Part shown: one piece after another, positions 10,389 through 21,645 of the stretch
Position numbering within the stretch: the first letter of the stretch is position 1
How the letters are laid out: every line of letters starts with the position of its first letter
NCBI RefSeq assembly: GCF_002979865.1
Contig: NZ_PCPZ01000005.1
Coordinates: 124,001 to 188,000, forward strand
Length of the DNA: 64,000 nucleotides
Origin: Arthrobacter sp. MYb214
GTDB taxonomy: Bacteria > Actinomycetota > Actinomycetes > Actinomycetales > Micrococcaceae
Reading direction: 5' to 3'
Position numbers and translations under genes: made by a program
Notes under the pieces: generated by a model
Told to the model about the DNA's origin: nothing
Seen by the model: the letters and a program-made list of their open reading frames with translations, nothing else
Database searches by the model: none

Positions 10389-10462
10389 GGAAGTAATAAG
10401 AACTTCCCTCATGATGCGGCGCATGTGATCGGGCAGACAGCCGGGTTCTCAATGAATGAGAA
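10389..10462 (-). promoter_or_regulatory. Two inverted repeats upstream of pobA
   Basis: GGAAGT (10389-10394) pairs with ACTTCC (10402-10407) across seven bases, and TTCTCA (10446-10451) pairs with TGAGAA (10457-10462) across five. Both lie in the 158-base gap between pobA and the MarR gene. The second shares the half-sequence TTCTCAA with the dyads upstream of couN and the ABC operon. They are candidate operators for pobA; neither has a T-run typical of a terminator. Confidence 0.45.
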
Positions 10463-10472
10463 AAATGGGGTG

Positions 10473-10946
10473 CTACTCCGCGTCAGCCAGCGCTACCCGG
10501 GATAGCAGATCGCGCAGCTGCAGCCGCTCCTGCGGGGTTAGCGCTTCCAAGGTCTCGTCCTCGTTTTGCCTGGTGATCTTGCGCGCCTGCGCGTAGAGCT
10601 TCCGGCCGGCCGCGGTGGCTACTATCACCTTGGAGCGGCGGTCGCTGGGATCTGGAATTCGGGAGACTAGTCCACTGGTTTCCAGCCCGTCCACTAGTGG
10701 CACGATCTGGCTTGGATCGAGCGCGAGAAATTCAGCGAGATCGCGTTGGGTGGGGGTGATGTCGCTGCACGCCAAGGAAAGTACCGAGTAGGAACGCACC
10801 TTGAGGCCGAGTGGCTTCAGCGCATGGTTGGCCCGGGTCGAACCCAGGGAGCGCATGCGCGCCACTAGGAAGTTCAGCTCCTGAACGAGGTCGCATTTCA
10901 TGAACAGTTCTTCCTTCGCTGATTTGGCGGTGATTTTGCTAGTCAT
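10473..10946 (-). CDS. couR: MarR-family repressor, CouR-like
   Basis: A 157-residue winged-helix protein. The core ITPTQRDLAEFLALDPSQIV followed by the wing PDPSDRRSKVIVAT is typical of MarR proteins. It is divergent from the phenylpropanoid operon. In Rhodococcus jostii RHA1 the MarR protein CouR represses the homologous cou genes and is relieved by p-hydroxycinnamoyl-CoA; the same role is inferred here. I chose ATG 10946 because GGGGA lies seven bases before it; the frame is open to a TTG at 10994, but that codon falls inside the operator-like dyad. Probable target sites are the dyads at 10981-10995 and 16292-16306. Confidence 0.82.
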   Translation of the reverse strand: MTSKITAKSAKEELFMKCDLVQELNFLVARMRSLGSTRANHALKPLGLKVRSYSVLSLACSDITPTQRDLAEFLALDPSQIVPLVDGLETSGLVSRIPDPSDRRSKVIVATAAGRKLYAQARKITRQNEDETLEALTPQERLQLRDLLSRVALADAE

Positions 10947-10963: not shown

Positions 10964-10995
10964 TCATGAAAAAATAAACCATTGACTTTCTCAAG
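10964..10995 (+). promoter_or_regulatory. couN promoter/operator, copy 1
   Basis: A 31-base block (10964-10994) is repeated upstream of the ABC transporter operon with 27 of 31 bases identical. Its end forms the dyad TTGA-N5-TCAA (10982-10994). TTGACT at 10983 can act as a -35 box, with TCTTAT 17 bases later as -10, so a repressor on the dyad would block polymerase. The dyad ends 86 bases before the couN start. Confidence 0.65.
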
Positions 10996-11080
10996 GATTA
11001 AAGTTCTTATGTATGTAGTCAAGGTTCCCACTTTTCTTCCAAGTGGAGCAATTGAAACACCTCACCGAATTGGAGTTCTC

Positions 11081-12010
11081 ATGTCCCTAGCAGGAAAAGT
11101 TGCCATCGTGACCGGAAGCGGACGCGGACTGGGCCTGAGCTATGCGCAAGAACTGGCGCGTCAGGGAGCCTCGGTGATTGTCAATGATGTCGATCCTGCG
11201 GCCGTGGATGCTGCGGTTGCTTCCATTACCGAAGCCGGTGGCACGGCGGCGGGAGTTGCGGCGGCGGTAGGTACGACCGAGGCCGCGAAGGTGCTGGTTG
11301 CCGGCGCTGTCGAGAACTTCGGTCGCCTGGATATTCTGGTCACCAATGCGGGTGTGCTGCGTGACAAGTCCCTGCTGAAGATGACCGACGAAGATTTTGA
11401 TCTGGTGATCAACGTCCACTTGCGCGGCACTTTCACCTGCGTGCGTGAGGCCTACGGGTATTTCAAGGAAAACAATGTCTCCGGACGCATCATTGCAATT
11501 GGTTCGCCGACCGGCCAGCGCGGCAACTTCGGCCAGAGCAATTACGCGGCGGCAAAGGCCGGCATTGTCGGCATGGTGCGCACCTGGGCCCTGGAAATGA
11601 AACGAGCCGGGGTTACTGCCAACGCAGTGATCCCGGTGGCAGCCACCGAAATGACCAAAACCGTTCCATTCTTTGCAGCTGCCGTGGAAGCCGACGAGCG
11701 CGGCGAAGCGATGCCGGACTTCTTCCGCAAGGATCTGGGCTTTGGCACCGCAGATGATGTGGCCGGCCTGATCGCCTACCTGGCCTCGGACGCGGCTGCA
11801 GAGATCAACGGCCAGGCCATTGGAGTCGGCGGGGACCGCCTGCAGGTCTGGAGCCACCCTGAAGCTGTGGTCACCGAGCTGCACGACGGCGGATGGGACT
11901 ATGAAACGCTGGCCAATGAATTCCCTGCGCGCTTCGGATCCCACCAGCAGTCCGTTGGGGAGAAGTTCCCGGAACTTCCGGAAGAACTGCGCCCGGAACC
12001 AGTCAAGTAG
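11081..12010 (+). CDS. couN: SDR oxidoreductase, 3-hydroxyacyl-CoA dehydrogenase of side-chain oxidation
   Basis: A 309-residue short-chain dehydrogenase. It has TGSGRGLG at residues 11-18 for NAD binding, NAGV after the fourth strand, and a Tyr-Lys pair in SNYAAAKAGIVG. The long C-terminal tail resembles MFE-2-type 3-hydroxyacyl-CoA dehydrogenases. Inferred reaction: oxidation of 3-hydroxy-3-(4-hydroxyphenyl)propionyl-CoA to the beta-ketoacyl-CoA. ATG 11081 follows GGAG by seven bases; an upstream in-frame start at 10982 lies in the promoter and is rejected. First gene of the couN-couO-ACAD-couM-couL series, matching couNOM in Rhodococcus. Confidence 0.82.
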   Translation: MSLAGKVAIVTGSGRGLGLSYAQELARQGASVIVNDVDPAAVDAAVASITEAGGTAAGVAAAVGTTEAAKVLVAGAVENFGRLDILVTNAGVLRDKSLLKMTDEDFDLVINVHLRGTFTCVREAYGYFKENNVSGRIIAIGSPTGQRGNFGQSNYAAAKAGIVGMVRTWALEMKRAGVTANAVIPVAATEMTKTVPFFAAAVEADERGEAMPDFFRKDLGFGTADDVAGLIAYLASDAAAEINGQAIGVGGDRLQVWSHPEAVVTELHDGGWDYETLANEFPARFGSHQQSVGEKFPELPEELRPEPVK

Positions 12011-12028
12011 GGAACTGGGGGAATCATT

Positions 12029-12919
12029 ATGACTTTGCGTTATGAACTGGGCATCGATTTCGCTTCGCTTGAAGCCATCGACATGCATGTGCACCTTGAA
12101 GTCGACGAATGCGGCCACAAGGCAATGCCGGAGGATCTTTTCGAAGCGTCGGCAGCGTATTTCAAATCATCGGAGCGTACACCCTCCATTGATCGCATTG
12201 CGCAGCTTTATCGCGAGTCGAACATGGCTGCCGTGGTGTTCACCGTTGATGCACGCACCGCGCTCGGGCATGATCCGAACTCCATTGAGGACTTGGTCCA
12301 GGGCTGCGCCCGAAATAATGACGTGCTTATTCCCTTTGGCTCGGTCGATCCCCGCCGAGGAGCCGAAGCCATCGGCGATGCGCAGTACCAGGCTGAACAG
12401 CTCGGAGTGCGCGGCTTCAAATTCCACCCCTCGCTCCAGGGATTCGATCCCAGCGATGAAGCGTTCTACCCGCTATGGGAAAAGCTCCAGGAGCTAGGCC
12501 TCCCATGCATTTTGCACACAGGGCAGAACGGCATGGGAGCAGGGCTGCCTGGCGGTCGGGGCATTAAGCTGCGTTACTCCAATCCGCTGCTGCTCGACGA
12601 TGTGGCCGCGGACTTCCCGAACCTGGTCATCATCATGGCTCACCCCTCGGTTCCATGGCAGGATGAAGCGAACTCCATTGCCACGCACAAGGCCAATGTC
12701 TACATCGATTTATCCGGTTGGAGCCCCAAGTATTTCCCCAGCTCCTTGGTGAAGATGGGCAATAACGTGCTGTCGCGCAAGCTGTTGTTCGGCACGGACT
12801 TTCCCTTGATTACCCCGGAGAAGTGGCTGGGGGCCTTTGCAGAATTGGAGTTGAAGGACTCGGTGAGACCGGGAATCCTGAAGGGCAATGCACTGCGCGT
12901 GTTGGGGATAGAAGAATGA
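12029..12919 (+). CDS. couO: 4-hydroxyphenyl-beta-ketoacyl-CoA hydrolase (amidohydrolase)
   Basis: A 296-residue TIM-barrel amidohydrolase. Metal-ligand candidates are His20 and His22 (DMHVH), His163 (ILHTG), His205 (MAHPS) and Asp257 (FGTDF). In Rhodococcus jostii RHA1, CouO cleaves 4-hydroxyphenyl-beta-ketopropionyl-CoA to the benzoic acid, replacing a thiolase plus thioesterase, and its Asp257 was shown to be needed. The equivalent Asp has the same number here. It starts 18 bases after couN and its stop overlaps the next start as ATGA. Products expected: 4-hydroxybenzoate from coumarate and vanillate from ferulate. Confidence 0.9.
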   Translation: MTLRYELGIDFASLEAIDMHVHLEVDECGHKAMPEDLFEASAAYFKSSERTPSIDRIAQLYRESNMAAVVFTVDARTALGHDPNSIEDLVQGCARNNDVLIPFGSVDPRRGAEAIGDAQYQAEQLGVRGFKFHPSLQGFDPSDEAFYPLWEKLQELGLPCILHTGQNGMGAGLPGGRGIKLRYSNPLLLDDVAADFPNLVIIMAHPSVPWQDEANSIATHKANVYIDLSGWSPKYFPSSLVKMGNNVLSRKLLFGTDFPLITPEKWLGAFAELELKDSVRPGILKGNALRVLGIEE

Positions 12920-14106
12920 TCCAACCGGCAGCAACTAGTGATTTCTATGGATTCAAGGACCTGCTCACCGACGCTGAGCGTGCGGCCCTGGACCGTTTGC
13001 GTTCCCTTTTGGCAGAACATGTGGGTCCGATAGTCGATGACTATTGGGAACGCGGAGAATTCCCGGAACAGATCGTGGCACCGCTGATCGATGCTGATCT
13101 GATGAACCCGGCCGAAGTGCTTGTCACGGGCCAGAAGCCTTCCGCGCTTTACTCGGGCTTCCGCAATTTCGAGCTGGGACGCATGGATGCCTCCGTAGCG
13201 ACTTACTACAACGCGCAGTCCGGCCTATTCCGGACCACCGTCAACCTGGGTGGAAGTGCGGAGCAGGTAGCCGTGCTTGAGCCGCGGATCACATCTTTTG
13301 CCTGCAAGGGAGTGTTCGCCCTGACCGAGCCAGAACACGGTTCGGATATTGCCGGAGGGCTAGCCACCTCGGCCAAGCAGGAGCAACGCGATGGTGTGGC
13401 TGGCTGGGTGATCAATGGGCAGAAGCGCTGGATCGGGGGCGCGAGCCAAGCGGACGTGCTGGCAGTATTTGCCCGCGACGCAGCCGATTCGCAGATCAAA
13501 TGCTTCTTGGTTCCAACGGACGCGCCGGGCATGGAAATCAGGAAAATTCCGGGAAAGACCAGCCTGCGCATTATGCAGAACGCCGACATCGAGCTGGGGA
13601 ATGTCTGGGTGCCAGCCAGCGGGCGACTGGCCAAGATCAACTCCTTTGCCGACGTAGCGGCCTGCCTGCGCAACATGCGCTCAGACGTCGCCTGGATTGC
13701 CACAGGCGTTTGCTTCGGCGCGTACGAATCGGCTCGCGACTACGTTGCCAGCCGTAGCCAATTCGGCAAGCCGCTGGGTTCATTCCAGCTGATCCAGGAA
13801 AAGCTGGCGCATATGCTCTCCAACGCCACCGCGAGCCTGGCTTTGGTGGTGCGGCTGACCCAGCAGCAGGATGCGGGCATCTACCGCGATGAAAACTCGG
13901 CCATGGCCAAGATGTTCACCGCACGCATGCTACGCGAAACGGCAGCCCTCGCCCGAGAGGTCTGCGGCGGCAACGGCATCTTGCTGGAGAACAACGTAGC
14001 GCGCCACCATGCCGACGCCGAAGCGATCTACTCGTATGAAGGCACACACGAGATCAATTCACTAATTATCGGACGCGCGATTACCGGTGTCAGCGCATTC
14101 CGCTAA
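12916..14106 (+). CDS. Acyl-CoA dehydrogenase, probable dihydrophenylpropanoyl-CoA dehydrogenase
   Basis: A 396-residue FAD acyl-CoA dehydrogenase. FALTEPEHGSDIAGGL marks the FAD/substrate region, and YEGTHEINSLIIGRAITG near the C-terminus supplies the catalytic Glu in the place used by glutaryl-CoA dehydrogenase. ATG 12916 overlaps the couO stop. It is not part of couNOM in Rhodococcus, but the Corynebacterium glutamicum phd cluster has an acyl-CoA dehydrogenase (PhdE) in a similar setting. I infer that it desaturates 3-(4-hydroxyphenyl)propionyl-CoA to coumaroyl-CoA, so that dihydro-acids such as phloretate enter the pathway. Confidence 0.85.
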   Translation: MIQPAATSDFYGFKDLLTDAERAALDRLRSLLAEHVGPIVDDYWERGEFPEQIVAPLIDADLMNPAEVLVTGQKPSALYSGFRNFELGRMDASVATYYNAQSGLFRTTVNLGGSAEQVAVLEPRITSFACKGVFALTEPEHGSDIAGGLATSAKQEQRDGVAGWVINGQKRWIGGASQADVLAVFARDAADSQIKCFLVPTDAPGMEIRKIPGKTSLRIMQNADIELGNVWVPASGRLAKINSFADVAACLRNMRSDVAWIATGVCFGAYESARDYVASRSQFGKPLGSFQLIQEKLAHMLSNATASLALVVRLTQQQDAGIYRDENSAMAKMFTARMLRETAALAREVCGGNGILLENNVARHHADAEAIYSYEGTHEINSLIIGRAITGVSAFR

Positions 14107-14159
14107 AGCGGCATTCGCGAACTCGAGCAACCAAAGAACCCATCTAGAGGAGAAATATC

Positions 14160-14615
14160 ATGGCACCAACCGTTTTGGATTACGCAGACCTCGCCAGCGC
14201 CCAGGGCAAGGACCTGGGCTACAGCGAATACCGCGTGGTCACACAGGAACAAATCAACACCTTCGCTGACGCCACTGATGATCACCAGTGGATCCACACC
14301 GATCCGCAGAAGGCCAAGGAAGGCCCTTTCGGTGGCCCGATTGCCCACGGCTACCTTACCTTGAGCCTGCAGATTGCGTTCTGGACCGAGCTTTTCGATG
14401 TCACCGGCGTGAAGACCAAGGTGAACTACGGCCTGGAAAAAGTTCGATTCCCTTCGCCCGTACCGGTGGGTTCCAAGATCCGCATGAAGGCGGTTATCGC
14501 CGAGGTGGAAGAGGTCAAGGGCGGATACCAGATTGCAGTGGACCAGGTCATCGAAGTCGAAGGCGGCACGAAGCCGGCCGTGGTCTCCCGGGGCCTCTAC
14601 CGCTTCTACGCCTAG
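14160..14615 (+). CDS. couM: MaoC-family enoyl-CoA hydratase
   Basis: A 151-residue single hotdog hydratase. The catalytic pair is Asp41 and His46 in DDHQWIHTDP, followed by GPFGGPIAHGYLTLSL, the MaoC/R-hydratase pattern. It should add water to p-hydroxycinnamoyl-CoA to give the 3-hydroxyacyl-CoA used by CouN. GAGGAG lies about eight bases before ATG 14160. The gap of 53 bases after the acyl-CoA dehydrogenase shows no terminator. It matches CouM by family and context. Confidence 0.85.
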   Translation: MAPTVLDYADLASAQGKDLGYSEYRVVTQEQINTFADATDDHQWIHTDPQKAKEGPFGGPIAHGYLTLSLQIAFWTELFDVTGVKTKVNYGLEKVRFPSPVPVGSKIRMKAVIAEVEEVKGGYQIAVDQVIEVEGGTKPAVVSRGLYRFYA

Positions 14616-14677
14616 GTAAAGAGCCAGCTGAGCTAGAGCCGCAACGGCAACGTACGACCTAATGAAAAGAGTGGCAG

Positions 14678-16195
14678 ATGTTGAATAAGGGGTTTGGCAA
14701 CTGGATTCACCGGCGTCGGATGAAATCCGCGCAGCAGGTTGCGGTGATTCATGCGGGAGTCGGCTTGAGCTACGCGCAGCTGGCAGAACGCATCGACAAG
14801 CTCAGCAGTGCCTTGGCGGCCAGCGGAGTCGCCCGCGGTAGCCGTGTAGCGTTTCTTGGCGCCAACCATGCTGCGTACCTGGAAACCATGTTCGCCGTTA
14901 CCCAGCTTGGGGCGTTGTTCGTTCCGCTCAATGTGCGTCTGGCGCCGCGGGAACTGAACTTTGCGCTGCGCGATTCAGGCAGCGAGGTGCTGATCTATGT
15001 CGAGAACTTCGCCAGCGAAGCGCATGTATCCATCGAAGGCAGCCCGGTCAGTACCGCCTGGGAAGTCGCTTCGGTTCCGTGCGCGGACTCATCCTATGAA
15101 CGGGCCCTTCAGGCAGGGCGCAGCGGTCACGACGATATCGCCGTCGAGTTAGAGGATCCAGCCATCATCCTCTATACGTCGGGCACTACCGGAACGCCGA
15201 AGGGCGCGGTGCTCACGCATGCCAACATGACGTGGAATTCCTACAATGTCATCGTTGACTACGATGTCACCAGCAGATCTGTTGTTTTGCTCATTGCACC
15301 GCTCTTCCATGTAGCGGCGCTGGGCATGGGCGCCTTGCCGATGCTGCTCAAGGGAGGAACAGTGGTCCTCCAGGAGCGTTTTGATCCCGCTGCCGTGCTG
15401 GATGCGGTGGAGCGCTACCAGGTCACCCAGCTCTCGGGCGTCCCAACGACCTTCCAATTGCTAGCCGAGCATGAAAAATGGGAGGAAACGGATTTGTCTT
15501 CATTGGAGATGCTCACCTGCGGAGGCTCCGCTGTGCCGCTACGTGTCCTTGAAGCCTATGAAGCGCGTGGGCTCGGATTCAGTGGCGGCTATGGCCTGAC
15601 CGAAACTGCGCCCGGCGCCACCATGCTCCAGGCAATGTACTCCCGACTGAAAATGGGTTCGGCCGGCCTGCCCCATTTCTTCACCGACATTCGCATCGCG
15701 GACTCGCTGGGCAATGAGGTGCCAGCCGGCGAGGTTGGCGAGATCCTGATCAGCGGCCCCAACGTGATCAAGGAGTATTGGGGCCGTCCCGATGCTACCT
15801 CAGGGGCGTTCCATGAATCTGGCTGGTTCCGTTCCGGGGATATCGGCCACGTGGATGAAGAAGGCTTCCTGTTCATCTCGGACAGGCTTAAGGACATGAT
15901 CATTTCCGGCGGGGAGAACATCTATCCTGCCGAAGTCGAGCAAGCCATTATGGGACTACCTGAAATTGAATCAGTGGCAGTGATTGGCGTCCCTGACGAG
16001 AAGTGGGGCGAAGTCCCGCGTGCAGTCATTGTGCTGAAGTCCGGTAGCTCTCTGGGCGAAGAGGATGTTGTGACGTATCTCGACGGACGCTTGGCGCGCT
16101 ACAAGATACCGCGCACCTCGGTCTTCCTGGATGAGTTGCCGCGCACCGCAAGCGGCAAGATACGCAAAGCCGACTTGCGCAAGCGGTTCAGCTGA
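14678..16195 (+). CDS. couL: p-Hydroxycinnamate:CoA ligase (AMP-forming)
   Basis: A 505-residue ANL-superfamily ligase. It shows ILYTSGTTGTPKGAVLTH (P-loop), GGYGLTETAPG, the SGDIGHVDEEGFLFISDRLK hinge and a C-terminal Lys in RTASGKIRKADL. It activates p-coumarate, ferulate or their dihydro forms to CoA thioesters, the first intracellular step. In Rhodococcus couL sits with a transporter, whereas here it ends the catabolic operon just before an ABC importer. A small hairpin (CCACG-GCTT-CGTGG, from 16201) follows the stop, but without a T-run. Confidence 0.85.
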   Translation: MLNKGFGNWIHRRRMKSAQQVAVIHAGVGLSYAQLAERIDKLSSALAASGVARGSRVAFLGANHAAYLETMFAVTQLGALFVPLNVRLAPRELNFALRDSGSEVLIYVENFASEAHVSIEGSPVSTAWEVASVPCADSSYERALQAGRSGHDDIAVELEDPAIILYTSGTTGTPKGAVLTHANMTWNSYNVIVDYDVTSRSVVLLIAPLFHVAALGMGALPMLLKGGTVVLQERFDPAAVLDAVERYQVTQLSGVPTTFQLLAEHEKWEETDLSSLEMLTCGGSAVPLRVLEAYEARGLGFSGGYGLTETAPGATMLQAMYSRLKMGSAGLPHFFTDIRIADSLGNEVPAGEVGEILISGPNVIKEYWGRPDATSGAFHESGWFRSGDIGHVDEEGFLFISDRLKDMIISGGENIYPAEVEQAIMGLPEIESVAVIGVPDEKWGEVPRAVIVLKSGSSLGEEDVVTYLDGRLARYKIPRTSVFLDELPRTASGKIRKADLRKRFS

Positions 16196-16274
16196 GCGCT
16201 CCACGGCTTCGTGGCGGATTCCGTGGCCTCACGTTTGCATAAGTGCAAGATACCGCCCATACGCAGAGAATAAA

Positions 16275-16316
16275 TCATCATAAAATCAACCATTGACATT
16301 CTCAATAGTTGGCTTA
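16275..16316 (+). promoter_or_regulatory. ABC-transporter operon promoter/operator, copy 2
   Basis: 16275-16305 matches 10964-10994 at 27 of 31 bases. The dyad here is the perfect ATTGA-N5-TCAAT (16292-16306). TTGACA at 16293 is a consensus -35 box; TAGTCT 16 bases later could be the -10. The dyad ends 90 bases before the transporter start, almost the same spacing as at couN. Shared control by the CouR-like protein is inferred. Confidence 0.68.
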
Positions 16317-16395
16317 GTCTTGAATTGTGGTTCAAATCACACACTTTCTTCGACCCGCCACTCGGGGTTGCGGCAATGGCTTTCTAGGGGGAAAT

Positions 16396-17394
16396 ATGAA
16401 AAAGCGCTGGTCTACACTGCTTGCAGGCGCAGCGGTCCTGTCACTCGGCCTGGTGGGCTGTGGCGGAGGTTCGCTGTCCGGCTCGACAGAATCAGAGGGA
16501 AGCACATCCGCCGCCGCCGAGGATGGCTCGCTCACCAAAATCACCGTAGGCATTCTGCCAATCGCACCGTCGGTTGCAGTGCAGCAGGGTATCGACGCCG
16601 GGACCTTTGAAAAGCATGGCCTGGATGTAGAACTGAGCACTTCCAACGCCGGTGCCGCGATGCTCCCAGCGGTATCCACCGGAGAATTGGCCATTGCCGT
16701 GGGCAATCCGCTATCGGTGATGACCGCTGCGGACAAAGGCCTGGACATGAAGATCGTCACCGGCTATTCCGCTTCCAAGGCTGATGGGGAGGATGTCAAT
16801 GGAGTAGTTGTGCGCAAGGACTCGGGCATCGGCGGCTGGGAAGATCTGGCTGGAAAAACCACATCGGTCAACGCGTTGCGTACCCAGGGCGACCTGACGA
16901 TTATGGAATCCGCAGAAATGGCTGGAGCCAATCCGAAAGACCTGAAGTTCAGCGAAATGCCTTTCCCGGACATGGAGGCGCAGCTGGATCGCGGCAACGT
17001 TGACGCCGTCTGGCTTCCAGAGCCGTTCCTCTCGCGTGCTTTGGGCGATAAGGACAACGAACTGCTTGGCTATCCAAACCAAGAAGCAATTCCGGGGCTG
17101 CCAACCATGGTGACGTTCACCAGCGGCCAGTTCGCTGAAGAGAATCCGGAAGTCATTTCCAAGTGGAAGGCAGCTATGGCGGAAGTACTGCCGGCCTCCG
17201 ATAGTGATCCGGATGCCGCCAGGGCCATGTTGCCAGACTTCATCAATATGGATGCCAAGGTAGCCGAAGGCTTGCTCATGGAAACCTGGGAAGCGGAAAC
17301 CCCAATTGAGGAACTGGCAAAGCTCGGAGATCTGGCCGCCAAGTTCGAATTCCTGGAGAAGGCCCCAGACATGAACAACCTCATCGCCAAGTAA
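16396..17394 (+). CDS. ABC transporter substrate-binding lipoprotein, NitT/TauT type (1)
   Basis: A 332-residue lipoprotein. Start ATG 16396 follows AGGGGGAAAT. The signal peptide ends in a lipobox at LVGC, giving a lipid anchor on the outer membrane face. It is a SsuA/TauA/ThiY-type binding protein (KITVGILPIAPSVAVQQGI and TGELAIAVGNPLSVMTAADK). It is a paralogue of the next gene. Because it lies in the couL-vanR interval and its promoter copies that of couN, the ligand is inferred to be a phenylpropanoid acid rather than nitrate or taurine. Confidence 0.85.
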   Translation: MKKRWSTLLAGAAVLSLGLVGCGGGSLSGSTESEGSTSAAAEDGSLTKITVGILPIAPSVAVQQGIDAGTFEKHGLDVELSTSNAGAAMLPAVSTGELAIAVGNPLSVMTAADKGLDMKIVTGYSASKADGEDVNGVVVRKDSGIGGWEDLAGKTTSVNALRTQGDLTIMESAEMAGANPKDLKFSEMPFPDMEAQLDRGNVDAVWLPEPFLSRALGDKDNELLGYPNQEAIPGLPTMVTFTSGQFAEENPEVISKWKAAMAEVLPASDSDPDAARAMLPDFINMDAKVAEGLLMETWEAETPIEELAKLGDLAAKFEFLEKAPDMNNLIAK

Positions 17395-17477: not shown

Positions 17478-18458
17478 ATGAAACACTCGCTCAAGCTCGC
17501 ACTCGCTTCGCTATCAGTCCTCGCGCTTGCTGCCTGCAGCTCCGGTTCGCCTAGCGGCGGCTCGACCGGGGAAGATGCTGCAGGATCAGATGGCTCGCTG
17601 GAAAAAATCACCGTCGGGGTAATCCCCATCGTCGATACCGCACCAATCTGGCTGGGAGAATCCAAGGGCTTCTTCGCCGAAGAAGGCCTGGACTTGGAAA
17701 TCGAAACCGCAACTGGCGGTTCGGCTATCGTCCCGGGCATCCAATCCGGGAGCTATGACTTCGCCTTCTCCAATCTGATCTCGGTAATGGTCGCCAACGA
17801 CAAGGGACTGGACATGAAGTTCGTCGCCAATGGCATCTCCACCACAGGTGATGTGAAATCCGACGTCGGGTCCGTGCTGGTCAAAAATGATTCCAAGATT
17901 TCTTCGCCCAAGGACTTGGCCGGCAAGAAGGTCTCGGTCAATAACCTGTCGAACATCGGCGATACCACCATCAAGTCAATTGTCGAAGAAGACGGGGGAG
18001 ACCCGGCAAGCATCGAGTTCGTCGAGGTTCCTTTCCCCGATGCTCCTGCTGCACTGGAAAACGGCATCGTCGATGCCGCCTGGATCCTGGAGCCGTTCCA
18101 GAGTACGGCCTTGGACGCCGGAGCGAAAATGCTCTCTGCGAACTTCGCCGAATTCGATCCGGAGCTGGATGTTGCCGGCTACTTCACTTCTGCGCAGTAC
18201 GCCCAGGAAAATCCCGAGGTGACCGAGAAGTTCACCAAGGCGATGGACAAGTCGCTTCAGTATGCGCAGGAGAACCCTGACGAGGTCCGCGAAGTTGTCG
18301 GAACCTACACCAAGATCAGCGAGGAGGTCCGCGCCGATATGGTGCTGCCGCGCTTCCGCCCTGACTTCAACCGCGAGGCCGTGCAAGAACTCGGCGATGC
18401 GGCACTGAGCTATGGCACCCTGTCCAAGCCAGTCGACCTGGAGAAGCTCCTGCCATGA
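17478..18458 (+). CDS. ABC transporter substrate-binding lipoprotein, NitT/TauT type (2)
   Basis: A 326-residue paralogue of the preceding lipoprotein with the same order of segments (KITVGVIPIVDTAPIWLGES, AFSNLISVMVANDKGLDMKF, WILEPFQSTAL). The signal peptide ends at LAAC. ATG 17478 follows GGGGGTAG. Its last four bases overlap the permease start (ATGA), so it is translationally coupled to the membrane subunits. Two diverged binding proteins sharing one permease pair suggest two ligand ranges, for example hydroxylated and methoxylated cinnamates; this is inference. Confidence 0.85.
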   Translation: MKHSLKLALASLSVLALAACSSGSPSGGSTGEDAAGSDGSLEKITVGVIPIVDTAPIWLGESKGFFAEEGLDLEIETATGGSAIVPGIQSGSYDFAFSNLISVMVANDKGLDMKFVANGISTTGDVKSDVGSVLVKNDSKISSPKDLAGKKVSVNNLSNIGDTTIKSIVEEDGGDPASIEFVEVPFPDAPAALENGIVDAAWILEPFQSTALDAGAKMLSANFAEFDPELDVAGYFTSAQYAQENPEVTEKFTKAMDKSLQYAQENPDEVREVVGTYTKISEEVRADMVLPRFRPDFNREAVQELGDAALSYGTLSKPVDLEKLLP

Positions 18459-19291
18459 GTGCCATCACTAGCACAGCGCCGGCTGAGGCGCGCCAAGCCA
18501 AGCGCAGGAAATCGGGCTCGAAATTCCCCAATGGCTTTTGGGGATTGATTGGCATCGTGACCTTCCTGGGGATCTGGGAACTGGTCCCGGCTCTTGGAAT
18601 TGTCGAGGCGGCTTACCTGCCGCCCGCCTCCGAAGTGCTGATGACGCTGTTCGCTGATCTTGCCTTGACCGCCTTCTGGGTCGCGGTGGGGGAAACCATG
18701 CTGGCATGGTTCATCGGCCTGGCCGCAGCGGTGCTGCTGGCGCTGGTACTGGGCTTGGTAATCGGCATGTCGAGCTTCCTGCGTCGTGCGACCAACTCCA
18801 CCATCGAGTTCCTGCGTCCAATTCCGTCGGTGGCATTGATCCCGCTCGCGGTGCTTTTGTTCGGCACGAAAATCGAATCCTCGCTGATGCTGATCATCTA
18901 TGCCTGCTTCTGGCAGGTGTTGATCCAGGTGCTCTATGGAGTTGCAGACGTGGATAATGTGGCGATGCAGACCGCGAGATCCTATGGATTCTCCCAGATC
19001 CAGCGCATCCGCGACGTCATCTTCCCGACCATGCTCCCTTACCTGATGACTGGCATCCGGCTGGGCGCTGCCGTGGCACTGATCCTGGCGATTACTGCGG
19101 AACTGATCATCGGCGCACCGGGTCTGGGCAAGGAAATCCAGCTGGCGCAGTCAGGCGGCGCAATCGCCGGAATGTACGCGCTGATTGTTGCCACCGGCCT
19201 GCTGGGCGTGGCAATCAACCTGTGCATGCGCATCATCGAAAAGCGCGTGCTTTCCTGGCACGCCTCAGTCCGGGGAGAGAACGCCGCATGA
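18455..19291 (+). CDS. ABC transporter permease, NitT/TauT type (1)
   Basis: A 278-residue permease with an approximately 20-residue basic cytoplasmic N-terminus and about six transmembrane segments. The EAA-like loop that docks the ATPase appears as MQTARSYGFSQIQRIRDVIF followed by a Pro-rich turn. It belongs to the SsuC/TauC group (MetI-like fold). It overlaps the binding-protein gene and the second permease gene by ATGA junctions, so the transporter is one tightly coupled unit. It probably forms a heterodimer with the next gene product. Confidence 0.87.
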   Translation: MSAITSTAPAEARQAKRRKSGSKFPNGFWGLIGIVTFLGIWELVPALGIVEAAYLPPASEVLMTLFADLALTAFWVAVGETMLAWFIGLAAAVLLALVLGLVIGMSSFLRRATNSTIEFLRPIPSVALIPLAVLLFGTKIESSLMLIIYACFWQVLIQVLYGVADVDNVAMQTARSYGFSQIQRIRDVIFPTMLPYLMTGIRLGAAVALILAITAELIIGAPGLGKEIQLAQSGGAIAGMYALIVATGLLGVAINLCMRIIEKRVLSWHASVRGENAA

Positions 19292-20061
19292 AACTCCTGA
19301 AGTCGATTTCCTTCATTCTGGCATTGCCGGTTCTGCTCATCCTCTGGTGGGTCGCGGCAACCCTTGGTGGAGCGAGCTTCTTCGTTCCTACCCCGGCAGA
19401 CTTGGGCAAGACCTTCATCGAGACCTGGGTTGGCGAACGCATGTTCACCGACGTCCTGCCAAGCGTCCAGCGCCTGGTTCTCGGCGTGCTCGGGGCCATT
19501 GTGCTCGGTGTGCTGCTCGGGTTGCTCGTCGGCATGAACCGCACCGCCCGGGCGATTACCGAACCGGTGTTCGAGTTCTTCCGTGCTTTGCCGCCGCCGG
19601 TGCTGATTCCGGTGCTGATGCTCTTGGTTGGCATTAACGACGGCATGAAGATCGCGGTGATCATCTCCGGCGCGATTTGGCCGGTGCTGCTGAACACCAT
19701 TGAGGGCGTTCGCGCCATCGATCCGGTGCAGAACGAAACCAGCCGCTCCTATGGCATCAGCGGTTTAGCCCGGATTCGCTACCAGGTGCTGCCAAGCGCC
19801 ACCCCGACCATCATGGCTGGCATCCGCCAGTGCTTGTCGATCGGGCTGATCCTTATGGTCATCTCCGAGATGTTCGCATCCTCCTCCGGGCTGGGCTTCG
19901 CGATCGTCCAGTTCCAGCGTTCCTTCGCCGTACCGGAAATGTGGTCCGGCATCGTGGTGCTGGGCCTGATCGGGGTCATCATGTCATTTATATTCCAGTG
20001 GATCGAACGCCGCGTCCTGCGCTGGTACAACGGTCTGAAAGAGGTTGAAAATGCTGTCTAG
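19288..20061 (+). CDS. ABC transporter permease, NitT/TauT type (2)
   Basis: A 257-residue permease, paralogous to the first, with an EAA-like loop ETSRSYGISGLARIRYQVLP. ATG 19288 overlaps the upstream stop (ATGA); a longer frame from 19222 would overlap the first permease by 70 bases and is unlikely. About six transmembrane segments. Many NitT/TauT systems use one permease as a homodimer, so a pair of distinct permeases here implies a heterodimeric channel. Confidence 0.87.
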   Translation: MKLLKSISFILALPVLLILWWVAATLGGASFFVPTPADLGKTFIETWVGERMFTDVLPSVQRLVLGVLGAIVLGVLLGLLVGMNRTARAITEPVFEFFRALPPPVLIPVLMLLVGINDGMKIAVIISGAIWPVLLNTIEGVRAIDPVQNETSRSYGISGLARIRYQVLPSATPTIMAGIRQCLSIGLILMVISEMFASSSGLGFAIVQFQRSFAVPEMWSGIVVLGLIGVIMSFIFQWIERRVLRWYNGLKEVENAV

Positions 20062-20920
20062 CCAGAATGGAACCGCCGGCGGGCGCACCCTGCCAGAAGG
20101 CGAAGCGCTGCTCTCGGTCCGGGGGCTGAAGAAGGTCTACCACACCGACGGCGGCGATATCGAAGCGGTCCGGGACCTCACCTTTGACCTGGGGCATGGC
20201 GAGCTGGTGTGCCTGGTCGGTCCTTCCGGTTCGGGCAAGACCACATTGCTCAAGTGCATTGCCGGCTTGCTGGGCGCCACCAGCGGCGAGGTGCTGCTGG
20301 ACGGGCAGAAAGTCACCGGACCGCCGAAGAAAATGGCCGTGGTCTTCCAAGAATACGGCCGGTCGCTGTTCCCGTGGCTGCGCGTGGCGGACAATGTCGA
20401 ACTGCCGCTGAAGAACGCCGGCGTCCCGAAGGCCGAACGCAAGAAATTGGTGGACGATGCGCTGGAAGCCGTGGGGCTGAGCCATGTGCCCAAGTCCTAC
20501 CCGTGGCAGCTCTCCGGCGGCATGCAGCAGCGCGTGGCGATCGCCCGCGCGGTGGCCTACCAGCCAGAGGTATTGCTGATGGATGAGCCATTCGCGGCCG
20601 TTGATGCGCAGACCCGCGCAGACCTCGAGGACCTGATCCGCAATGTCTGGAAGAAGCTGGGGGTCACCGTGCTGTTCGTAACCCACGACATCGACGAGTC
20701 GATCTACCTGGGCCAGCGCGTGATCATCTTGTCTTCTTCGCCAACCGTGGTGCAGGAGGATATCCTGATCGATCTGCCGGCGGAGCGCGACCAGCTGGAA
20801 ACCCGGTCGCTGCCGCGATTCACCGAGCTTCGCCACCATGTCTACGCGGAAATCCAGAAGGCCAAGCAAGGGCATCGCCCCGAAGAGGCCAAGACGAAGT
20901 TCTTGACGAATCCCAAGTAG
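20051..20920 (+). CDS. ABC transporter ATPase, NitT/TauT type
   Basis: A 289-residue ATPase with Walker A GPSGSGKTTLLKC, a Q-loop in VVFQEYGRSLFPWL, signature LSGGMQQRVAIARA, Walker B VLLMDEPFAAVD and H-loop VLFVTHDIDESI. It is of the SsuB/TauB group and energises uptake through the two permeases. I chose ATG 20051 with AAAGAGG before it; it overlaps the preceding gene by 11 bases. A strong terminator follows at 20928, ending the operon before the convergent vanR gene. Confidence 0.93.
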   Translation: MLSSQNGTAGGRTLPEGEALLSVRGLKKVYHTDGGDIEAVRDLTFDLGHGELVCLVGPSGSGKTTLLKCIAGLLGATSGEVLLDGQKVTGPPKKMAVVFQEYGRSLFPWLRVADNVELPLKNAGVPKAERKKLVDDALEAVGLSHVPKSYPWQLSGGMQQRVAIARAVAYQPEVLLMDEPFAAVDAQTRADLEDLIRNVWKKLGVTVLFVTHDIDESIYLGQRVIILSSSPTVVQEDILIDLPAERDQLETRSLPRFTELRHHVYAEIQKAKQGHRPEEAKTKFLTNPK

Positions 20921-21558: not shown

Positions 21559-21590
21559 AACCGCCCCTTTCCAGAAATGTGTTGCGTATC

Positions 21591-21645
21591 ACTATCTATA
21601 TAGCTAGTCTAATGGCATGCGAACTATCTATGTGCATAGATAGTT
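21591..21645. promoter_or_regulatory. Probable VanR operators
   Basis: A perfect palindrome AACTATCTAT-N4-ATAGATAGTT occupies 21622-21645. A second, 16 of 18 bases symmetrical and built from the same ACTATCTAT element, occupies 21591-21608. From memory, the C. glutamicum VanR sites have the same 10-N4-10 layout with an AACTA start. One site lies nearer vanA and the other nearer vanR, as expected for divergent repression. Confidence 0.75.

Follow-up and report, generated by a model that had tools for sequence, protein, structure and literature searches.

The closest described counterpart of the locus analysed here is the CouR regulon of Rhodococcus jostii RHA1, in which the inverted repeat cATTGA-N5-TCAATg overlaps the TTGAcA element at four promoters and one box is common to the divergent couN and couR genes (PMC4737184). 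Binding of RHA1 CouR was seen in gel shifts and was lost when the repeat was substituted, and p-coumaroyl-CoA is reported to release the protein; once couR had been deleted, couN was more highly transcribed in the absence of p-coumarate (PMC4737184). A similar arrangement is found in a 64,000-nucleotide stretch of Arthrobacter sp. MYb214 (contig NZ_PCPZ01000005.1, positions 124,001 to 188,000; the window), where two near-identical 31-base blocks precede a catabolic operon and an operon for an ATP-binding cassette (ABC) importer. Very probably, the MarR-type protein encoded divergently from the catabolic operon represses both operons via operators in these blocks, and probably it is released by a hydroxycinnamoyl-CoA, the whole forming a CouR regulon in what is probably a Glutamicibacter-type member of the Micrococcaceae. 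One regulon with the divergent MarR gene as repressor had been the core of the original prediction, and it is supported, on sequence grounds, by the match to RHA1 CouR in family, DNA-reading residues, operator sequence and placement, and pathway, together with the presence of the box in 76 of 80 related loci.

The repeated block and its putative regulator

Block 1 (10964-10994, plus strand) lies in the divergent gap between the MarR gene and a short-chain dehydrogenase/reductase (SDR) gene and holds a predicted CouR-type operator with its dyad at 10982-10994 (site 1). Block 2 (16275-16305, plus strand), upstream of the ABC transporter operon, holds a second predicted CouR-type operator with its dyad at 16293-16305 (site 2). 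Base-by-base comparison gave identity at 27 of the 31 positions, in agreement with the original prediction, and the runner-up 31-base matches in the window reach only 20 (block 1) and 21 (block 2), each of them being the block 2 dyad on the opposite strand; the best match remaining after these is 19. The TTGAC -35 box and the TTGA-N5-TCAA dyad that had been described were read directly at both blocks, and the distances to the start codons were reproduced exactly (86 bases from block 1 to the SDR ATG at 11081, and 90 from block 2 to the ATG of substrate-binding protein 1 (SBP1) at 16396). CATTGA-N5-TCAA is common to both sites, and the right ends differ, with TCAAGG at site 1 and TCAATA at site 2. 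The bare 13-base dyad is not significant in the window (2 seen versus 0.87 expected, with 18/100 shuffles reaching 2); since about one such dyad per window is expected by chance, the finding rests on the longer 17-base core ACCATTGACWTTCTCAA. This pattern, derived from the two sites themselves, gave two matches in the window at up to three mismatches, both exact, versus 0.25 expected, and 4/100 shuffles reach 2. In the 3.72 Mb genome it gave nine matches, comprising these two exact ones and seven with three mismatches, against three for the control pattern. The scans of the own genome also gave many two-mismatch matches to the dyad. Ten loci of genome-scan matches were inspected, one of which is site 2 of the window; the other nine lie inside stop-to-stop frames of at least 120 codons, a position that does not prove coding.

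The divergent regulator gene (10473-10946, minus strand; Pfam MarR) encodes a protein whose closest PDB matches are 5cyv (E 4.7e-24) and 3fm5 (E 4.9e-24), both of which we take to be structures of RHA1 CouR. Residues in 5cyv are numbered in agreement with the contact list of the CouR paper, where Asp65, Ser67 and Gln68 are the proposed DNA-reading residues (PMC4737184). These three residues are identical in 14/14 aligned proteins, the MarR protein of the window included. Arg38 is likewise kept in all of them, and each has either Lys or Arg at position 36, the window protein carrying Lys36 and Arg38; Lys36 is named for the CouR homologues of C. glutamicum (Corynebacterium glutamicum) and Arthrobacter sp. 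FB24 (PMC4737184). With the DNA-reading residues retained, DNA recognition by the window MarR should be that of CouR. The gene has two plausible starts (10898-10946), either the ATG at 10946 or an in-frame ATG at 10901 with AAGGA before it.

Conservation of the operator was followed in loci from a scan of named genomes, which comprised the best 80 of 303 relatives of this MarR gene; the loci are mostly from Micrococcales, are not independent trials, and include Arthrobacter sp. MYb213 (L056) and Glutamicibacter uratoxydans NBRC 15515 (L060). In 76/80 loci the strict dyad occurs upstream of the MarR match at a distance of no more than 300 bases (shuffles: mean 0.18, largest 3), so that the search for the motif in related genomes, which the original prediction had suggested as a check, came out in its favour. 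Three of the four loci without a strict dyad carry TTGT-N5-TCAA 78-85 bases before the MarR match, and in the fourth (L103) none of the catabolic genes was detected by tblastn. Within 250 bases of the SDR gene a box was found in 69 of the 75 loci with an SDR match; in L121 the regulator and the SDR gene carry one box each. Likewise, 58 genomes were searched (own included), and about 20 kb was read in each of the 13 others with the strongest match, at least 7 of which are also among the 80 loci. All 13 have the strict dyad in the MarR/SDR gap, which in L045 spans 1.9 kb and holds the ligase gene and two boxes. Within the genus (18 genomes, own included), a CouR-like MarR gene is present in 4/18 (E ≤ 1e-35) and SBP1 in 2/18 (E ≤ 1e-60), both of these also with the MarR gene; the cluster is accessory within the genus. 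One further locus, L059, lies on a contig labelled as an Acidobacteria metagenome-assembled genome and shows a Paeniglutamicibacter-like gene order, its MarR protein being 62% identical to that of the window; the label may reflect a binning error.

The position of the box relative to promoter elements was compared across 84 divergent boxes, of which the window contributes one and the loci 83 after removal of one close to a contig end, and across 33 non-divergent ones (window included). The predicted catabolic promoter (10982-11010, plus strand) consists of the -35 element TTGACT (10982-10987), 17 bases and the -10 element TCTTAT (11005-11010). On this side TNNNAT stands exactly 17 bases past the -35 hexamer in 72/84 divergent boxes, and the box thus sits on the -35 of a promoter. 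On the regulator side TNNNAT occurs at 17 bases in only 15/84; here, a weak reading of the sequence gives a possible MarR promoter that would share the operator (10966-10994, minus strand; TTGAGA, 17 bases, TTTCAT). The predicted transporter promoter (16293-16320, plus strand) reads as TTGACA, 16 bases and TAGTCT; TANNNT at 16-18 bases is seen in 14/33 non-divergent boxes, and TTAGTCTTG of this promoter is also kept in L056. A consensus promoter scanner, for which the second base of the -10 element must be A, returned no promoter at the catabolic site, and at site 2 it returned a minus-strand sigma-70-like match and no plus-strand one. On the minus strand, TTGAGA-N17-TATGAT (16305-16277) points toward the ligase gene, possibly as an antisense transcript or a relic, and the minus side of the box is promoter-like in few relatives.

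Inducer and origin of the second site

In the proposed model, a MarR dimer would sit on each TTGA-N5-TCAA operator without substrate, covering the -35 box, and would repress both the beta-oxidation operon and the NitT/TauT-type ABC importer operon. It would probably also repress its own gene via the operator shared in the divergent gap, which makes autoregulation likely. A hydroxycinnamoyl-CoA made by the ligase would bind the dimer as a thioester and displace it from the DNA, whereupon uptake and catabolism would be induced together and the products 4-hydroxybenzoate and vanillate would pass to the pobA, vanA-like and pcaGH genes next door. We infer p-coumaroyl-CoA as ligand and binding of the MarR protein to both sites.

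Several findings, in the ligand pocket and in the placement of the box, weigh against this model. The 12 listed phenol-pocket residues of CouR include 4 that are identical in the window protein (Phe13, Val37, Tyr40, Ser41) and 8 that differ, and the phenol-hydrogen-bonding Asp10 and His117 of CouR are both Glu. In combination with the retained DNA-reading residues, these changes leave the exact inducer less certain than the DNA recognition. The same circuit could then answer to another inducer, with the MarR protein sensing a different aromatic acyl-CoA such as a dihydro- or differently substituted phenylpropanoyl-CoA, an option that we consider unlikely, albeit far from negligible. In addition to the diverged pocket, the acyl-CoA dehydrogenase in the operon would suit saturated side chains, and the piperine enzymes PipU-X resemble p-hydroxycinnamate enzymes, so that the substrate cannot be read from enzyme family alone. 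Conversely, the genes on either side of the cluster, for 4-hydroxybenzoate 3-monooxygenase, pcaGH and a VanA_C oxygenase, are those that use of p-coumarate and ferulate would lead one to expect. The inducers of C. glutamicum PhdR, also an actinobacterial regulator of this kind, are the CoA thioesters of p-coumaric, ferulic and caffeic acids (PMC7593625).

As regards placement, the 1.51 Mb of loci contain 140 dyads, 84 of them upstream of MarR, 15 of the ligase, 11 of SBP1 and 6 of other listed genes; another 14 fall within annotated genes, and 10 are at other positions. The ligase has its own box in 16/55 loci and permease 1 in 2/27. No strict box was found within 250 bases before SBP1 in 27 of the 43 loci with an SBP1 match; a same-strand annotated gene stands close upstream in 25 of these 27 by a loose test, and SBP1 in those 25 may be read from the SDR promoter in a longer operon. 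Finally, a perfect CCATTGA-N5-TCAATGG occurs elsewhere in the own genome (C14:100420-100438; L052 1501-1519), followed after about 160 bases by a plus-strand frame of 446 codons and with alternative starts of a divergent minus-strand frame nearby. It is without the ACWTT spacer that both window sites have, and could be a third operator or chance.

The other 16 of the 43 loci have a box within 250 bases before SBP1, 11 of them at 90-98 bases and five with SBP1 divergent from MarR. In some loci the box follows rearrangement, as it precedes SBP1 with the ligase gene either upstream (window, L056) or downstream (L061 and others). The original prediction had left open whether the block was duplicated or strongly selected. 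To weigh the two, flanks were compared in the 12 loci, counting the window, that have both sites. The mean identity of site 1 flanks to site 2 flanks is about the same within as between genomes (upstream 0.30 versus 0.29; downstream 0.27 versus 0.31), and like sites resemble each other across loci (0.66 upstream and 0.77 downstream for site 1, 0.36 and 0.58 for site 2). The operators thus look old, and the comparison favours their being held by selection; recent duplication was rejected as the main explanation. That site 2 is a recent copy of site 1, made by duplication or gene conversion and without need of a function, is improbable on these grounds, even though the 15 bases located 6-20 bases left of the dyad are alike in the window (identity 0.67, above that of the 11 other loci, with 0.47 in L056 and 0.20-0.33 in the other ten); on the downstream side, over positions +6 to +30 from the dyad, identity between the two window copies is 0.28. 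That the repeat is a mere shared sigma-70 promoter or the site of another regulator is very improbable: TTGAC is a -35 box and this MarR protein is one of 12 homologues matched in the genome at E ≤ 0.001, yet the right half TCAA, which lies outside the promoter consensus, accompanies the left half at constant spacing next to this MarR gene in 76 of the 80 loci, and the DNA-reading residues of CouR are unchanged in the window MarR.

A Crp/GlxR-like dyad at the transporter promoter

A further, Crp/GlxR-like dyad, TGTGG-N6-TCACA (16326-16341, plus strand), lies just past the transporter -10, at about the predicted transcription start. Compared with the published Crp/GlxR site consensus TGTGANNTANNTCACA (PMC4254451), the window sequence TGTGGTTCAAATCACA departs at one position of the arms and is missing the central TA. 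All 12 SBP1 promoters with a non-divergent box, window included, have one mismatch to TGTGANNNNNNTCACA, and TGTGG-N6-TCACA sits 20-28 bases past the box in each of them; these 12 sites represent few genera. Among relatives the inner bases of the dyad vary and the arms do not, and the reversed pattern was not found at the 12 sites at two mismatches or fewer. Over all 33 non-divergent boxes, each counted singly (in the count by site the ligase sites number 13, two loci with two ligase boxes each having been merged), 17 have the dyad with one mismatch and 9 with two, versus 0.10 and 0.98 expected from mononucleotide shuffles. At site 1 it occurs with one mismatch in 12/84, the window not among them. 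The five loci with SBP1 divergent from MarR (L095, L097, L099, L100, L101) were counted with site 1 and left out of the 12; only L097 and L100 show the dyad, with two mismatches.

In the own genome, three exact matches to the Crp/GlxR motif were found, none of them in the window, and none for the control pattern. At two mismatches or fewer the motif is not in excess in the window (11 seen versus 21.7 expected). The promoters intended as controls (pobA, pcaH, vanA, PadR and MFS (major facilitator superfamily) relatives) carry it at this threshold in 16/48 and are consequently not neutral. Two-mismatch dyads are present at 10424-10439, upstream of the 4-hydroxybenzoate monooxygenase gene, and at 21578-21593, in the gap between the PadR and VanA-like genes. 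Though not above chance in the window, such weaker dyads are a possible hint at wider carbon control of aromatic genes.

A clear Crp/GlxR orthologue is encoded in the genome (L136 protein), with matches to PDB 3d0s (E 4e-79), 4byy (2.6e-72) and 4cyd (2.7e-72), the first presumably being M. tuberculosis Crp and the other two C. glutamicum GlxR. A Crp/GlxR site over the transcription start would, most simply, repress; GlxR of C. glutamicum is in most cases an activator (PMC4254451). We propose tentatively, with slightly more doubt than confidence, that the transporter promoter is a two-input gate, in which a CouR operator on the -35 and a Crp/GlxR operator on the start stand at a near-fixed 20-28 bases and uptake of hydroxycinnamates would need both substrate and a permissive carbon state, the catabolic operon in this species being under CouR alone. 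The pairing of CouR box and Crp/GlxR-like dyad recurs in relatives from a few Micrococcaceae genera.

Gene content and comparison with known systems

The operon divergent from the MarR gene runs, on the plus strand, through the SDR dehydrogenase of side-chain beta-oxidation (11081-12010; Pfam adh_short), an amidohydrolase (12029-12919; Pfam Amidohydro_2) that is CouO-like by family and context, an acyl-CoA dehydrogenase (12916-14106; Pfam), a MaoC-type hydratase (14160-14615; Pfam) and an acyl-CoA ligase (14678-16195; Pfam AMP-binding), from its context a probable hydroxycinnamoyl-CoA ligase. By Pfam family, a putative gene set for the beta-oxidative deacetylation of p-hydroxycinnamates, with the amidohydrolase at the last step, is thus present. 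The second operon, also on the plus strand, is a NitT/TauT-type ABC transporter with two binding proteins, judging from its domain matches: SBP1 (16396-17394) and substrate-binding protein 2 (17478-18458), both of NMT1/SsuA type, permease 1 (18455-19291) and permease 2 (19222-20061, start uncertain), both Pfam BPD_transp_1, and the ATPase (20051-20920; Pfam ABC_tran). In another genome of the genus with the same CouR cluster (G014, locus L039), no ABC operon was found within the 20 kb read; after the ligase, whose match is split into two pieces in different frames, follows a stretch that matches 46% of the MFS carrier of the window at 85% identity.

Next to the MarR gene lies a gene for 4-hydroxybenzoate 3-monooxygenase (pobA), which scores above the NCBIfam subfamily cut-off and below the equivalog cut-off. 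The protocatechuate dioxygenase subunit genes pcaG and pcaH nearby pass the NCBIfam cut-offs, and the pcaB- and pcaD-like genes that come after them are both below theirs. Past the transporter are found a PadR-type regulator, a Rieske oxygenase with VanA_C (vanA-like) and a reductase, and the MFS carrier, which is nearest to the aromatic-acid/H+ symport subfamily and below its cut-off.

With this locus, a lignin-monomer switch of known structure would reach into the Glutamicibacter/Arthrobacter group, and its clear operator consensus makes it straightforward to predict regulons and build sensors in these soil bacteria. The locus also links hydroxycinnamate use to a candidate importer, the NitT/TauT-type ABC transporter with its two binding proteins, and points to transport as a step at which carbon state may exert control. 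Among the leading matches of a search of open-licence PMC titles and abstracts, no report was found of CouR in Glutamicibacter or of a NitT/TauT importer in a CouR regulon.

The likeness to the RHA1 CouR regulon extends to the CouR-family MarR protein, the ATTGA-N5-TCAAT-type box on the -35, its position between the divergently transcribed regulator and catabolic genes, and the p-hydroxycinnamate beta-oxidation genes including the amidohydrolase (PMC4737184). There are two boxes here compared with four box-bearing promoters in RHA1, and the window differs further in Lys36, the diverged pocket and the added Crp/GlxR-like dyad at the transporter promoter. The transporters also differ, the window having the NitT/TauT-type ABC system with two binding proteins and RHA1 couT encoding an MFS carrier. 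PhdR of C. glutamicum is likewise a MarR-type repressor of phenylpropanoid catabolism that is relieved by CoA-activated hydroxycinnamates, and its exact promoter elements are described as not known (PMC7593625); it offers a precedent for the inducer class. A precedent for control of an ABC importer is found in Rhodopseudomonas palustris, where a hydroxycinnamate ABC importer (CouPSTU) and catabolic genes form one MarR regulon, under CouR, that answers to p-coumaroyl-CoA (PMC3610893). R. palustris CouR has about 25% identity to RHA1 CouR and is without Arg36 and Arg38 (PMC4737184). CouPSTU belongs to a different ABC family from the importer of the window. The system in the window thus appears to place a well-understood type of control in a host new to it and to join it to another kind of transporter.

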